Positions 5,456 through 11,493 of a stretch of DNA of 64,000 nt are shown piece by piece. Within the stretch, counting starts at the first letter, position 1. Each line of letters starts with the position of its first letter. The notes under the pieces were generated by a model, which was given only the letters and a program-made list of their open reading frames with translations, searched no databases and was not told the DNA's origin. A program made the position numbers and the translations under genes. This DNA is from an uncultured Clostridia bacterium (GTDB taxonomy: Bacteria; Bacillota; Clostridia; Oscillospirales; Acutalibacteraceae), in contig CANQGT010000001.1 in the NCBI GenBank assembly GCA_947623505.1, positions 124,001 through 188,000 of the forward strand. The letters run 5' to 3'.

Positions 5456-5869
5456 TCAGATAGTGTGCCTGCTTTTAACTTTTATTCGCTCCATGGCTCT
5501 GGCAAGCCCGGCCTTGGATTCTATATATTCCATACGGCTCTGCTTTTGGCGCAGTTCCTCCTCGAACTGCTCCTTCGTGCGCTGCGCCCATTCAAGATCT
5601 ATATCTTCGGGACGAAGCGCCGAAGCGCAGACAAGAACCGCCTCGTTGTTTATAAATTCAAGAAAGCCGTCGCCGACAAAAGCGTCCGTCTCCTCGCCGT
5701 TCGCGGCAATTATCTTCATTTCGCCTGCCTCGATGGGCATAACGCAGTTTTCGTGATGGGCAAGAAAGCCCATACTGCCGCCGTCAACGTAAGGCACCGT
5801 AAGACTTTGGCATTCCCCGTCGAAAAAAACGCCCTTGGATTCAACGATTTTCAGTTTGAAGATTCCCAT
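5456..5869 (-). CDS. atpC: F1 ATP synthase epsilon subunit
   Basis: 137 residues: an N-terminal beta-sandwich (about 1-85, containing GSMGFLAHHENCVMPIEAGEMK) and a C-terminal helical hairpin (AQRTKEQFEEELRQKQ onward). The subunit belongs to the rotating central stalk and can inhibit ATP hydrolysis through its C-terminal helices. It is the last of the contiguous atp genes, 21 bases after atpD. Confidence 0.95.
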   Translation of the reverse strand: MGIFKLKIVESKGVFFDGECQSLTVPYVDGGSMGFLAHHENCVMPIEAGEMKIIAANGEETDAFVGDGFLEFINNEAVLVCASALRPEDIDLEWAQRTKEQFEEELRQKQSRMEYIESKAGLARAMERIKVKSRHTI

Positions 5870-5890: not shown

Positions 5891-7276
<1,386 letters not shown>

Positions 7277-7288
7277 TTAGGATTCCTC

Positions 7289-8182
7289 CTAACTTATTAT
7301 TTTACCGTGATTTTTCTGCGCCCGCGAACCTGCCGCCACTTCGGTTATCTCCTGAGTTATCGCGGATTGCCTTGCGCGGTTGAACTGTATGCCCAAATTC
7401 CTTATCATATCGGTGGCGGCGTCTGTTGCGGTCTGCATGGCAAGCATTCTTGAATTGTGCTCGCTGCAATACGATTCAACAAGCGCGCCGTAAATGAATC
7501 CGGCTATATAGCTCGGAAGAATATAATCAAAAACCGTTTTCGCGTCGGGCAGAAACGCAACGCTCTCGTCATAAGCCTTTCCGTCCGTTTTAATATGCTC
7601 CGGCTTCAGCGGCAGTATCTTCTGCAGCGTCGGTTCAACGGTCATCGAATTTACCATTCGGGTATAAACGACGTACAGTTCGTCTATTTTTTCGTCAAGG
7701 AAAAAATCAATAAGCTCTTCGGCTATATGCCTCGCCCTGCCCATGGTGGGATCCTGCGCGGTGAAATTAAAATGTATATCTATGGGTATATTCCGCTTTT
7801 CAAAAAAATGCCTTCCCACCTGGCCGACAACAAACAGCATATCGTTTGTTTCGCTAAGCTCACGCGTTGTCGCGGTTTTTATTATATTGTGATTATACGC
7901 GCCGGCAAGGCCTTTATCGGCGGTTATAACGAGATAGCCTATCCTTCTGTCCTTTCCCTGCCTTTGCGGGCGCTGATCGAAATAATCCGTGCCGACGTCC
8001 GGCGCCGTTTTAAGGATATTAGCGAGATTTTCCTGAATCATAAAGAAATACGGCTCTGTGCGCGCAAGATCCCTTCTTGCCTTTTGCAGCTTTGAGGAAG
8101 AGACCATATACATCGCGTTAGTTATTTTTTTCGTATCCTTTATTGATTTTATCCTGCTCTGTATCTCTCTTGTGTTAGCCAT
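7289..8182 (-). CDS. atpG: F1 ATP synthase gamma subunit
   Basis: 297 residues with the conserved N-terminal helix (REIQSRIKSIKDTKKIT) and C-terminal helix (RARQSAITQEITEVAAGS) that form the rotor coiled coil inside the alpha3beta3 ring. The C-terminus extends about ten residues beyond the usual end with RAQKNHGKIIS. The ATG overlaps the stop of the delta/alpha gene in an ATGGCTAA arrangement, indicating translational coupling. Confidence 0.97.
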   Translation of the reverse strand: MANTREIQSRIKSIKDTKKITNAMYMVSSSKLQKARRDLARTEPYFFMIQENLANILKTAPDVGTDYFDQRPQRQGKDRRIGYLVITADKGLAGAYNHNIIKTATTRELSETNDMLFVVGQVGRHFFEKRNIPIDIHFNFTAQDPTMGRARHIAEELIDFFLDEKIDELYVVYTRMVNSMTVEPTLQKILPLKPEHIKTDGKAYDESVAFLPDAKTVFDYILPSYIAGFIYGALVESYCSEHNSRMLAMQTATDAATDMIRNLGIQFNRARQSAITQEITEVAAGSRAQKNHGKIIS

Positions 8183-10007
8183 TGTTTACCCTTTCGTAAT
8201 CGTCAACAGCTTCAAGTATTCTGTTTTTCATCTCGTCGTCAAGATTTTTCGTTTTCTCGATTTCCTCAATAATATCGCGGTGAGAAGCCTCGAAATAATC
8301 AAGCATATCGCTTTGGTAATCCTTTATTTCATCAACGGGAACACCAACGAATTTTCTGCCGATGGCGGCGACAAGAGTTATTACCTGCTGCGCCATCGAA
8401 AGCGGCTTTCCAAGCGGCTGCCTCAAGAGGCGCATAAGGCCCGTGCCGTATAAAAGCTGAGACTTTGTTTCCTCGTCAAGATCGGAGGAAAATTGGGTGA
8501 ATACCTCCATCTCTCTGAACTGCGCGAGATCGACGCGCAGAGAACCCGCCGCTTTTTTCATAGCCTTGGTCTGAGCCGCGCCGCCGACACGGGAAACGGA
8601 CAGTCCGACATTTACCGCCGGACGCTGACCGCTGAAAAACAAATCGCTTTCAAGAAAAATTTGACCGTCCGTGATTGAAATAACGTTTGTCGGTATATAC
8701 GCCGAAACGTCGCCCGCCTGAGTTTCGATTATCGGCAGCGCCGTTACGGAACCTCCGCCAAGCTCGGGAGAAAGTCTCGAAGAACGCTCCAAAAGCCTTG
8801 AATGGAGATAGAAAACGTCACCGGGGTAAGCCTCGCGCCCGGGTGAACGTTCAAGCAGCAGCGAAAGCTCGCGGTAAGCCACTGCGTGCTTGCTCAAATC
8901 ATCGTAAACAATAAGGCAGTCCATTCCCTTATGCATAAAATACTCCGCCATTGCCGTTGCGGAATACGGCGAAATATATTGCAGCGAAGCGGGATCTGAA
9001 GCGGTGGAGCAAACCACAACGGTATAATCCATAGCGCCCTGCTTTTCAAAAGTGTTTACGAGCTTTGCAACCGTAGACGCCTTCTGCCCTATCGCATTGT
9101 AAATGCAAATGCAGTTTTTGCCCTTTTGATTTATTATAGTGTCCATAGCGATAGAGGTTTTACCCGTCTGCCTGTCGCCTATAATAAGCTCACGCTGCCC
9201 CCTGCCTATGGGGAACATCGAATCTATCGCGAGTATGCCTGTCTCAAGCGGCTGAGAAACGGATTTTCTGTCCACAATCGAGGGAGCATCGTTTTCGATC
9301 GGGCGGTATTCGTCCGACAGTATCTCGCCCTTGCCGTCTATCGGCTCGCCGAGGGCGTTTATTACTCTGCCAATAAAAGCCTCGCCCACGGGAACGCCGG
9401 CGTTTTTATGAGTCCGCTTAACCCGTGAACCCTCGTGTATCTCCGAATCGGAGCCGAAAAGAATACAGCCTATCCTGTTTTTCTTTATATCCTGCACCAT
9501 TCCCTTAACGCCGCTGTCGAAAATAACTATTTCGCCGTACATCGCGTGGTCTATTCCCGAAACGGACGCTATTCCGTCGCCGACGCTTATAACGCGGCCG
9601 ATTTCCTCGCTCTCAAGCTCAAAATCGTGCTCTTTTATCTCCGCTCTGAGAATGGATATTATATTGTTTTGAGAATTCTTGTCGAAATCCGATGAAACGG
9701 CCTTTTTCGCTTTTTCCGAAACGGCGCTTCTTACGCTTGAAAGCCTGCTTTTCAGGCTCCTGTCGTACTGCCTGCCGCCGATCTCGATAATAAAACCGCC
9801 GATAAGACTTTTGTCTTTAACGATTTTTATATCCGCGCGGTCGGCTCCCGTCTGCCTGCAAACAAAATCCTTCAGACCGTCAAGCTGTTTTTCGTCGGGC
9901 TCCGTTACGCAGTAAACAACGGCCTCTGCACATTTTTCGCCCGACGCGCTGTTTCCCGAAAGCGGCGCATTCAAAGGATCATTGGTTTTCAGAGCCATTG
10001 TCATCAC
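8175..10007 (-). CDS. atpA: F1 ATP synthase alpha subunit with fused delta C-terminal domain
   Basis: 610 residues, about 108 longer than a usual alpha subunit. Residues ~113-610 are a complete alpha chain, with Walker A GDRQTGKT at 277-284, the VGDGIASVSG beta-barrel start and SVSRVGG. Residues ~27-97 match the C-terminal domain of the delta/OSCP subunit: EKQLDGLKDFVCRQTGA, then DKSLIGGFIIEIGGRQYDRS and LKSRL. That is the beta-strand module that binds the b subunit. Residues 98-112 are a charged linker. The start lies inside atpF (GTG at 10007, or ATG at 10004 or 9998), with only a weak GAAAG ribosome site, so translation is probably coupled to atpF. No separate delta gene and no delta N-terminal helical bundle are present in the operon. 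The coding sequence shows no frameshift. Confidence 0.93.
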   Translation of the reverse strand: MMTMALKTNDPLNAPLSGNSASGEKCAEAVVYCVTEPDEKQLDGLKDFVCRQTGADRADIKIVKDKSLIGGFIIEIGGRQYDRSLKSRLSSVRSAVSEKAKKAVSSDFDKNSQNNIISILRAEIKEHDFELESEEIGRVISVGDGIASVSGIDHAMYGEIVIFDSGVKGMVQDIKKNRIGCILFGSDSEIHEGSRVKRTHKNAGVPVGEAFIGRVINALGEPIDGKGEILSDEYRPIENDAPSIVDRKSVSQPLETGILAIDSMFPIGRGQRELIIGDRQTGKTSIAMDTIINQKGKNCICIYNAIGQKASTVAKLVNTFEKQGAMDYTVVVCSTASDPASLQYISPYSATAMAEYFMHKGMDCLIVYDDLSKHAVAYRELSLLLERSPGREAYPGDVFYLHSRLLERSSRLSPELGGGSVTALPIIETQAGDVSAYIPTNVISITDGQIFLESDLFFSGQRPAVNVGLSVSRVGGAAQTKAMKKAAGSLRVDLAQFREMEVFTQFSSDLDEETKSQLLYGTGLMRLLRQPLGKPLSMAQQVITLVAAIGRKFVGVPVDEIKDYQSDMLDYFEASHRDIIEEIEKTKNLDDEMKNRILEAVDDYERVNNG

Positions 10008-10479
10008 TGCTTTCGTTTAAAAATTCATCGAAAATATCGCTGTTCGTCTTATCGCTGACACTTGCGCCGACAACCTTTTCGGCGGCGTCCATAGCAAGGT
10101 TGGCAATGCTCTCCCTTGCAAGGCGTATCTCGTTTTCACGCTCCGCCTGCGCCTGCTTTTTGGCGCTGTTCATCAGTTTTTCCGCGTCAGTCTCCGCTTT
10201 TTCGATTATTCTGGCGTATTCTTCCTTGGCGTTTTCCTTCGCGTCGCTTATTATTTTCTGCGACTCGTCGTTTGCGCCGTCCATCTTTTCCTCATACTGC
10301 TTTTTGAGCTCCATCGCCTTTGTTTCGGCGTCCTGCGCGTCCTGAAGCTGCTTGTTTATCAGCTCTTTGCGCTTATCGAGCACCCTTTTGATCGGCTTGA
10401 AAAGGAACACCCTCATAAGTATAAAGAAAACTACGACGTTTATTATCGCAACAAGAAAATTCCAGTCAAATTTCAGCAT
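9979..10479 (-). CDS. atpF: F0 ATP synthase b subunit
   Basis: 166 residues: one N-terminal membrane helix (about 9-27, FLVAIINVVVFFILMRVFLF) followed by a long charged, Ala-rich coiled coil (about 35-150) that forms the peripheral stalk. The C-terminal tail (FLNESSDDNGSENQ) is acidic and polar. Length is normal, so it is not a b-delta fusion of the mycobacterial kind. Its last 29 bases overlap the start of the delta/alpha gene. Its C-terminus should contact the delta domain, which here is carried by alpha. Confidence 0.95.
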   Translation of the reverse strand: MLKFDWNFLVAIINVVVFFILMRVFLFKPIKRVLDKRKELINKQLQDAQDAETKAMELKKQYEEKMDGANDESQKIISDAKENAKEEYARIIEKAETDAEKLMNSAKKQAQAERENEIRLARESIANLAMDAAEKVVGASVSDKTNSDIFDEFLNESSDDNGSENQ

Positions 10480-10524: not shown

Positions 10525-10773
<249 letters not shown>

Positions 10774-11493
10774 TTATTCAACAGCTTCCTCAATGTAAAT
10801 AGCTGTTAAGAACGTGAAAATATACGCCTGCAAAAATCCGTCGAACAAATCAAAATACAGGCTGAACACGGCGGGAACGCCGAATTTAAGAAAGATAACG
10901 CTTTTCAGAAGTTCCATAATTATAAACGCGCCCAAAACGTTTCCGAAAAGTCGCATACAAAGCGAAAGGGGCTTTATAACAATCTCAAGCGCGTTTATCG
11001 GAGCCACTATCCAAACGGGCTCGGCAAAGGATTTGAGATGCTTCCCCAATCCCTTTTTTCTTACTCCCGCAGCCTGAACAAGCACTATGCTTGTGACTGC
11101 CAGCGCGGCCGTTACCTGAAGGCTTTTTGTGGGCGGCTTAAAGCCGAAAATACCCACCATATTCATAGCGCCGACATAAATCGCAACGCTCATAAGCCAC
11201 GGCACGTATTCCTCGCCCTTTTCTCCGACAATATTCTGAAAAAAGGTGACGATTTTTTCGTAAGCGGCCTCAAGCAGGCGCTGGCGTTTGCTTATCTCGC
11301 CCTGCACTTTAAGATTTCTCGTCAATATAATGGCGATAACGGTAAGAACTGCCATAATTATCCAGGAAACAACCGTGGATTCGTCTATGCTCACGTTGAT
11401 GAACGGAATCTTGAAAACCTCTTCGATATCAAGCTGCTTCACAAGCTCCTCTTTTATATCCATACTTACGAAAGCGAAAGGAAAATTCGGCAT
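10774..11493 (-). CDS. atpB: F0 ATP synthase a subunit
   Basis: 239 residues with about five to six membrane helices. The conserved Arg of SLCMRLFGNVLGAF is the residue that faces the c-ring carboxylate during ion translocation. It is the first gene of the operon; no atpI is visible ahead of it. The ATG at 11493 follows GGGGGTGA. An internal ATG ten codons later is a less likely start. Confidence 0.95.
   Translation of the reverse strand: MPNFPFAFVSMDIKEELVKQLDIEEVFKIPFINVSIDESTVVSWIIMAVLTVIAIILTRNLKVQGEISKRQRLLEAAYEKIVTFFQNIVGEKGEEYVPWLMSVAIYVGAMNMVGIFGFKPPTKSLQVTAALAVTSIVLVQAAGVRKKGLGKHLKSFAEPVWIVAPINALEIVIKPLSLCMRLFGNVLGAFIIMELLKSVIFLKFGVPAVFSLYFDLFDGFLQAYIFTFLTAIYIEEAVE

Follow-up and report, generated by a model that had tools for sequence, protein, structure and literature searches.

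Delta–alpha fusions in the F-type ATP synthases of an uncultured Clostridia bacterium and its relatives, and their possible bearing on peripheral stalk number

The window, a stretch of 64,000 nucleotides of DNA from an uncultured Clostridia bacterium, contains a full F1Fo ATP synthase gene set, in which a, c, b, gamma, beta and epsilon were all found beside alpha and the order, from 11493 down to 5456, is a-c-b-[deltaCTD-alpha]-gamma-beta-epsilon. The gene in the atpA position is a single stop-free frame in the open reading frame (ORF) list and encodes 610 aa, joining the C-terminal domain (CTD) of delta to alpha. The features of the locus are as follows:

5456..5869, minus strand: atpC, subunit epsilon, 137 aa, both Pfam domains present (ORF and Pfam)
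5891..7276, minus strand: atpD, subunit beta, 461 aa (ORF and Pfam)
7289..8182, minus strand: atpG, subunit gamma, 297 aa (ORF and Pfam)
8175..10007, minus strand: deltaCTD-alpha fusion gene in the atpA position (ORF, Pfam and NCBIfam)
8190..9671, minus strand: complete alpha subunit, residues 113-606 of the fusion (TIGR00962, 758 bits)
9672..9719, minus strand: linker, about residues 97-112, without in-frame ATG, GTG or TTG
9723..9938, minus strand: delta/OSCP C-terminal (b-binding) domain, residues 24-95 (Pfam PF00213 and AlphaFold2)
9957..10007, minus strand: residues 1-17, like the start of the full-length fusion L129 (alignment, no statistics)
9979..10479, minus strand: atpF, subunit b, a separate gene, 166 aa (ORF and Pfam)
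10525..10743, minus strand: atpE, subunit c, 72 aa (ORF and Pfam)
10774..11493, minus strand: atpB, subunit a, 239 aa (ORF and Pfam)

Profile searches placed Pfam OSCP on residues 24-95 of the fusion (E=1.4e-11, 45.3 bits against a cut-off of 22.3) and the NCBIfam atpA model TIGR00962 on residues 113-606 (758 bits, cut-off 484), bearing out the preliminary description, which had proposed a delta CTD covalently joined to a complete alpha. The match covers positions 100-171 of the 172 in the OSCP profile, so the delta N-terminal domain (NTD) is absent. No separate delta was found either: the fusion gene gave the only OSCP match in a profile search of the whole genome, which is 96.67% complete. 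The atpA model matched only alpha and beta, and therefore no further rotary ATPase of that superfamily was found in the genome; weaker extra matches to this model occurred in three of six NTD-less relatives tested (G642, G626 and G624). Against TIGR03324, the model for the alternate F1F0 alpha, the window fusion scored 610.2 bits, under the cut-off of 750.5.

The candidate starts of the fusion gene (GTG 10007, ATG 10004 and ATG 9998) all fall within the 3' part of atpF, which overlaps the start of the fusion and retains the C-terminal tail of b known from relatives. The window start, MMTMALKTNDPLNAPLS, aligned with the L129 start, MKAMSLRIDDYVNMLLS, after which the window passes directly into the CTD. 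We read these approximately 17 N-terminal residues, whose likeness to full fusions was judged by eye, as a putative remnant of the delta NTD's first helix, and the NTD itself as probably lost through an in-frame internal deletion. Judging from its frame, it is near certain that the gene encodes one deltaΔN-alpha polypeptide. The window c subunit (10525-10743) lacks the glutamine that we take to be part of the sodium-binding pattern of c, and its sequence suggests proton rather than sodium coupling.

An AlphaFold2 model of the window fusion, built on 35 aligned sequences, had a mean pLDDT of 73, with values below 50 at residues 1-23, 106-111 and 127-130 and in parts of the nucleotide-binding domain, and residues 26-105 were predicted in the order strand-helix-strand-hairpin-helix. 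Foldseek ranked PDB chains 9jc1_I, K and J first to third for this model (576-578 columns, rmsd 6-8), and phmmer gave a single alignment of window residues 27-600 with the delta-alpha chimera 9jc1_I. Ueno et al. 2025 removed residues 2-104 of Bacillus PS3 delta and joined the remainder to alpha (PMC12229609). The engineered deltaΔN-alpha FoF1 had up to three peripheral stalks by cryo-EM, each with an a-subunit, with about two stalks on average and 1.26 stalks per molecule on the cryo-EM grids, while a gel gave a and b at about twice the usual amount, H+/ATP was 5.8 compared with 3.0, and the threshold proton-motive force was about half (PMC12229609). The authors attribute the limit of one stalk to the delta NTD, which lies on the threefold axis, and they name natural deltaΔN-alpha cases, Acidaminococcus fermentans and UniProt G4Q3K6 and A0A1I2C5T3, as awaiting verification (PMC12229609). 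The layout of the window is thus already in print, although the preliminary description knew of no such example; that description also stopped short of the consequence that three alphas per F1 would provide three stalk anchors.

Like the engineered PS3 chain (9jc1), the window fusion has a delta CTD, a short linker and an alpha N-terminus, with no NTD and no separate delta. The engineered enzyme was designed and its stalk number measured, whereas the window fusion is natural, and the epsilon C-terminal domain was removed in the former but is kept in the latter. Acidaminococcus fermentans, G4Q3K6 and A0A1I2C5T3 are described in that paper as likewise joining an NTD-less delta to alpha, though the A. 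fermentans fusion belongs to another organism than the window. Delta is also built into another stator subunit in the b-delta fusion of the mycobacterial type (PDB chain 9vkp_d), which joins it to b, whereas the window joins it to alpha and encodes b separately (166 aa, 9979-10479). N-ATPases share with the window the lack of a separate delta gene, and they are described as having no delta and a longer b (PMC5706428). The window, in contrast, has a delta domain and an alpha below the alternate-alpha cut-off.

An ATP synthase normally contains three alpha subunits. Because no other alpha gene was found in the genome and the fusion has no usual internal start, all three alphas per F1 should carry the delta CTD, so that every alpha of the window F1 would present a b-binding domain. 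The NTD, which by the argument of Ueno et al. lies on the threefold axis and limits the enzyme to one stalk, is absent from the window, and each alpha could then, as in the engineered enzyme, dock a b2 dimer and an a-subunit. The enzyme would thereby have as many as three peripheral stalks, with a higher H+/ATP and ATP made at low proton-motive force. We consider it somewhat more likely than not that each alpha bears a stalk anchor in this way and that up to three stalks permit ATP synthesis at low proton-motive force. Since the window layout is that of the engineered enzyme, the same working is most likely, and the end-to-end match of the window to the 9jc1 chain, whose enzyme gains stalks, would argue for it; the retained epsilon C-terminal domain of the window, missing from the engineered enzyme, argues against it.

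The main alternative is a single-stalk enzyme, in which three deltaCTD-alphas recruit only one b2/a unit, limited by a and b supply or membrane space. On this view the fusion helps assembly and secures the anchor, and the NTD was lost because the covalent link makes it dispensable. We give this explanation a lesser but still substantial chance. Even the engineered enzyme, with its average of about two stalks and fewer on grids, is in its favor, but that counterpart does acquire extra stalks (PMC12229609).

The distribution of layouts in the window's genus bears on both readings. A scan of 80 genomes gave an OSCP match in 73 and none in 7; the 73 comprised 59 stop-free frames of 636-684 aa with delta from profile position 20-26 plus alpha, 7 NTD-less frames of 584-613 aa (window included), 2 genomes in which delta is separate (176 aa), and 5 truncated or interrupted frames (190, 228, 262, 526 and 562 aa) whose class is not readable from length alone. 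The extension is therefore fused in an open frame in close relatives, and the commonest form in the genus is a delta-alpha fusion with most of the NTD. The proposal that the alpha-delta contact had been replaced by a covalent link hence describes the end state, but not the history, since most genus fusions keep most of the NTD. Because this commonest form retains most of the NTD and three NTDs cannot share one axis, fusion would not have originated for three stalks alone. In a scan of named genomes, annotation of the best 80 of 342 loci found full delta-alpha fusions to be widespread, with the NTD present in the fused genes of Eubacterium coprostanoligenes ATCC 51222 (L179, 672 aa), Lachnospiraceae bacterium A4 (L188, 673 aa) and Lachnospiraceae bacterium GAM79, whose genome is complete (L184, 674 aa). 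The dominance of full fusions in the genus (59/73 with OSCP), their spread in the named set and the nesting of NTD-less forms among them all favor a single stalk. Among the rows compared, the nearest alpha to that of the window was in the NTD-less fusion of Eubacterium sp. HAN013 (L136, 603 aa, 86% identity over alpha), of which L215 is an identical copy.

We took a census of layouts in 195 rows, one per distinct alpha, in which alpha genes were distinguished from beta genes by comparing each directly with the alpha and beta of the window; the loci were chosen to include fusions, so the counts are not frequencies. The most numerous were NTD-CTD-alpha fusions (66), followed by separate full deltas (49) and called CTD-alpha fusions (36), though three of the last (L038, L155 and L223, 674-678 aa) are probably full fusions with a weak NTD. 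There were 16 b'-CTD-alpha fusions, 15 separate deltas with only a CTD called (71-102 aa, with L081 at 159 aa), 6 alphas extended at the N-terminus by a long segment in which no CTD was called, and 2 alphas alone. Single occurrences were a doubled NTD in a fusion (NTD-NTD-CTD-alpha, L037, 6536-8884), a tandem deltaCTD fused to alpha (CTD-CTD-alpha, L079, 6041-8068), a separate delta with a second CTD (NTD-CTD-CTD, L075, 5899-6654), a b-CTD protein beside a free alpha (L080, 6212-6901) and a fusion in which the NTD was the sole delta domain called (L196). That NTD-less delta also occurs unfused, in 15/195 rows, counts against the multi-stalk reading. The free-standing CTD-only deltas of 71-102 aa lie between b and a normal alpha (L061-L069, L092, L093, L098, L100 and L101).

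An even phylum sample of 299 genomes held a stop-free deltaCTD-alpha frame in at least 16, the window's included, with at least one more cut by a contig end. When the other 16 loci from this sample were annotated, the 15 uncut ones were single frames without an NTD call and L269 was cut; the CTD call of L256 was under threshold. We also observed that 18 of the 20 c proteins shown carried an N-terminal signal-peptide-like extension and spacer (L047-L055, L058, L079, L082, L084, L088, L090, L091, L254 and L256), which the window c lacks; of the remaining two, L070 was cut by a contig end and L268 was different-looking.

The b'-deltaCTD-alpha triple fusions (735-759 aa, n=16; L039, L041-L046, L077, L078, L083, L085-L087, L094, L096 and L097) have a separate short b of 138-141 aa encoded alongside. 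They form one clade in trees and so represent one event, not sixteen. In all 16 the fused b' starts with a hydrophobic stretch, with a maximal 19-residue mean of 2.1-2.7, and an AlphaFold2 model built on 15 sequences predicted b' helices, the CTD and alpha at low confidence (mean pLDDT 66). As there are three alphas per F1 and b' is anchored, three b' chains per F1 would be expected unless they are cleaved, and this apparently membrane-type N-terminus argues for several stalks; a single stalk in these enzymes would require cleavage or idle b' chains. The epsilon profile match ended before the C-terminal domain in 16/16 triple-fusion operons, compared with 2/132 other epsilons, so that in this respect, too, the window differs from them. 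The c proteins of triple fusions shown have a Gln nearby, unlike the window c.

In a genus tree of alpha without the fused part (50 rows), the seven NTD-less rows fell into three groups, {window, L215} (support 97/67), {L214, L216} (96/90) and {L217-L219} (100/99), each adjoining full fusions. A single grouping of all seven was rejected (AU p=3.6e-6) in a test whose NTD-less set excluded L117, since this is a full fusion truncated at the end of its contig. In an 81-row alpha tree across the order we counted 18 layout changes, and a 94-row tree required 13 between NTD-less fusion and the rest, or a minimum of 12 with branches under 80% collapsed and resolved most favorably; similarly softened counts were 14 for the presence of the NTD and 8 for the fusion of delta to alpha. 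These counts carry no direction, and operon transfer between lineages could inflate them. Repeated appearance of NTD-less fusion, in three genus groups and by at least 12 changes in the 94-row tree, is expected if the state is useful, consistent with the multi-stalk reading. The nesting of NTD-less forms among NTD-bearing fusions makes it most likely that the covalent delta-alpha link is older than NTD loss.

The fused NTD may already have changed before it was lost. A first-helix pattern of delta was present in 51/55 separate deltas outside the genus and two of four rows of separate genus delta, but in none of 40 fused deltas of the genus set, so the fused NTD there was already altered from the common form; the pattern occurred in 17/48 other fused deltas, some of which belong to genus members entered as named records. 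The ratio of NTD to CTD divergence was 1.15-1.42 in fused versus 1.02-1.15 in separate deltas, while that of NTD to alpha was lower in fused deltas at small distances and slightly higher at large ones, from pairs that are not independent in either comparison. Relaxed evolution of the fused NTD is thus only partly supported. In the window's genus, L229 and L230 have a separate full delta nested among fused species, and by eye this delta is closer to that of L102 than to that of the fused neighbor L036; it may have been reacquired by recombination.

A processed chain, by proteolysis or rare-codon internal initiation, would let free alpha and one deltaCTD-alpha coexist, which we find improbable. 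An in-frame internal start with a strong ribosome-binding stretch was present in 26/138 fused genes, compared with 15.4 expected from start-like codons inside alpha, a modest excess suggesting that some relatives may make free alpha, and this lowered our confidence in the multi-stalk reading slightly. The linkers also appear flexible, with low pLDDT at 106-111. Against processing, no in-frame ATG, GTG or TTG lies between the CTD end and the alpha N-terminus in the window, nor in 47/138 fused genes, whereas 68/69 separate alpha genes possess a start with such a strong stretch. Free alpha by internal initiation in the window is ruled out for the usual start codons, as none is in frame. Linker length, taken as the distance between the end of the CTD and one set position in alpha, with duplicates included, was 13 in 16/16 triple fusions, 11-16 in 86 NTD-CTD-alpha fusions and a median of 13 (range 1-23) in 43 called CTD-alpha fusions; near constancy in most forms argues for the multi-stalk reading, and the 1-23 spread of the last form against it. 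Ribosome-site strength, used as a stand-in for surplus a and b and compared with separate full delta operons in several tests on related sequences, gave a mixed picture: it was higher for a in triple fusions (p 0.015) with no such difference in NTD-less fusions (p 0.69), and for b was higher in NTD-less fusions (p 0.017) and lower in full fusions (p 0.0015).

An assembly or frameshift artefact is rejected as vanishingly improbable: although the window assembly has 24 contigs at 96.67% completeness and many relatives are metagenome-assembled, the NTD-less fusion occurs in seven genus genomes and on a 2.88 Mb contig (L260), and both E. coprostanoligenes ATCC 51222 (L179) and GAM79 (L184), the latter with a complete genome, carry fused genes.

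A low-gear enzyme of the multi-stalk kind would suit cells with weak gradients. The window genome and 14/14 genus genomes tested encode RnfC, a component of the Rnf ion pump, which would fit a small ion gradient. In four genomes of the window's genus (G614, G660, G231 and G293) rnfC and the alpha match share a contig and are separated by about 4.4-4.8 kb, so the Rnf and ATP synthase genes may be neighbors there; the window genome has them on separate contigs.

In searches of open-licence PubMed Central we found neither full delta-alpha fusions nor b'-delta-alpha triple fusions described, nor any account of the NTD being lost repeatedly. What is new is that full delta-alpha fusions occur in most species of the window's genus and NTD-less fusions in three separate groups. 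We put at close to even the wider proposal that F-type ATP synthases with several stalks are a common natural feature of Bacillota, with fusion and NTD loss each arising several times and one clade adding b', covalently enforcing three b' per F1; Ueno et al. leave open whether natural multi-stalk ATP synthases exist (PMC12229609). The genomes supply natural stages for comparison, namely separate delta, full fusion, NTD-less fusion, free NTD-less delta, tandem deltaCTD and triple fusion. Among the natural cases are full fusions in Eubacterium coprostanoligenes ATCC 51222, which is a deposited strain, and in Lachnospiraceae bacterium GAM79, whose genome is complete. V-type ATPases are the comparison for several stators, and the proposal, if true, would represent a multi-stator route convergent with them, a low gear for weak proton gradients. 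If the multi-stalk reading is true, the H+/ATP of the F-type ATP synthase would be an evolvable setting under the control of one small domain.
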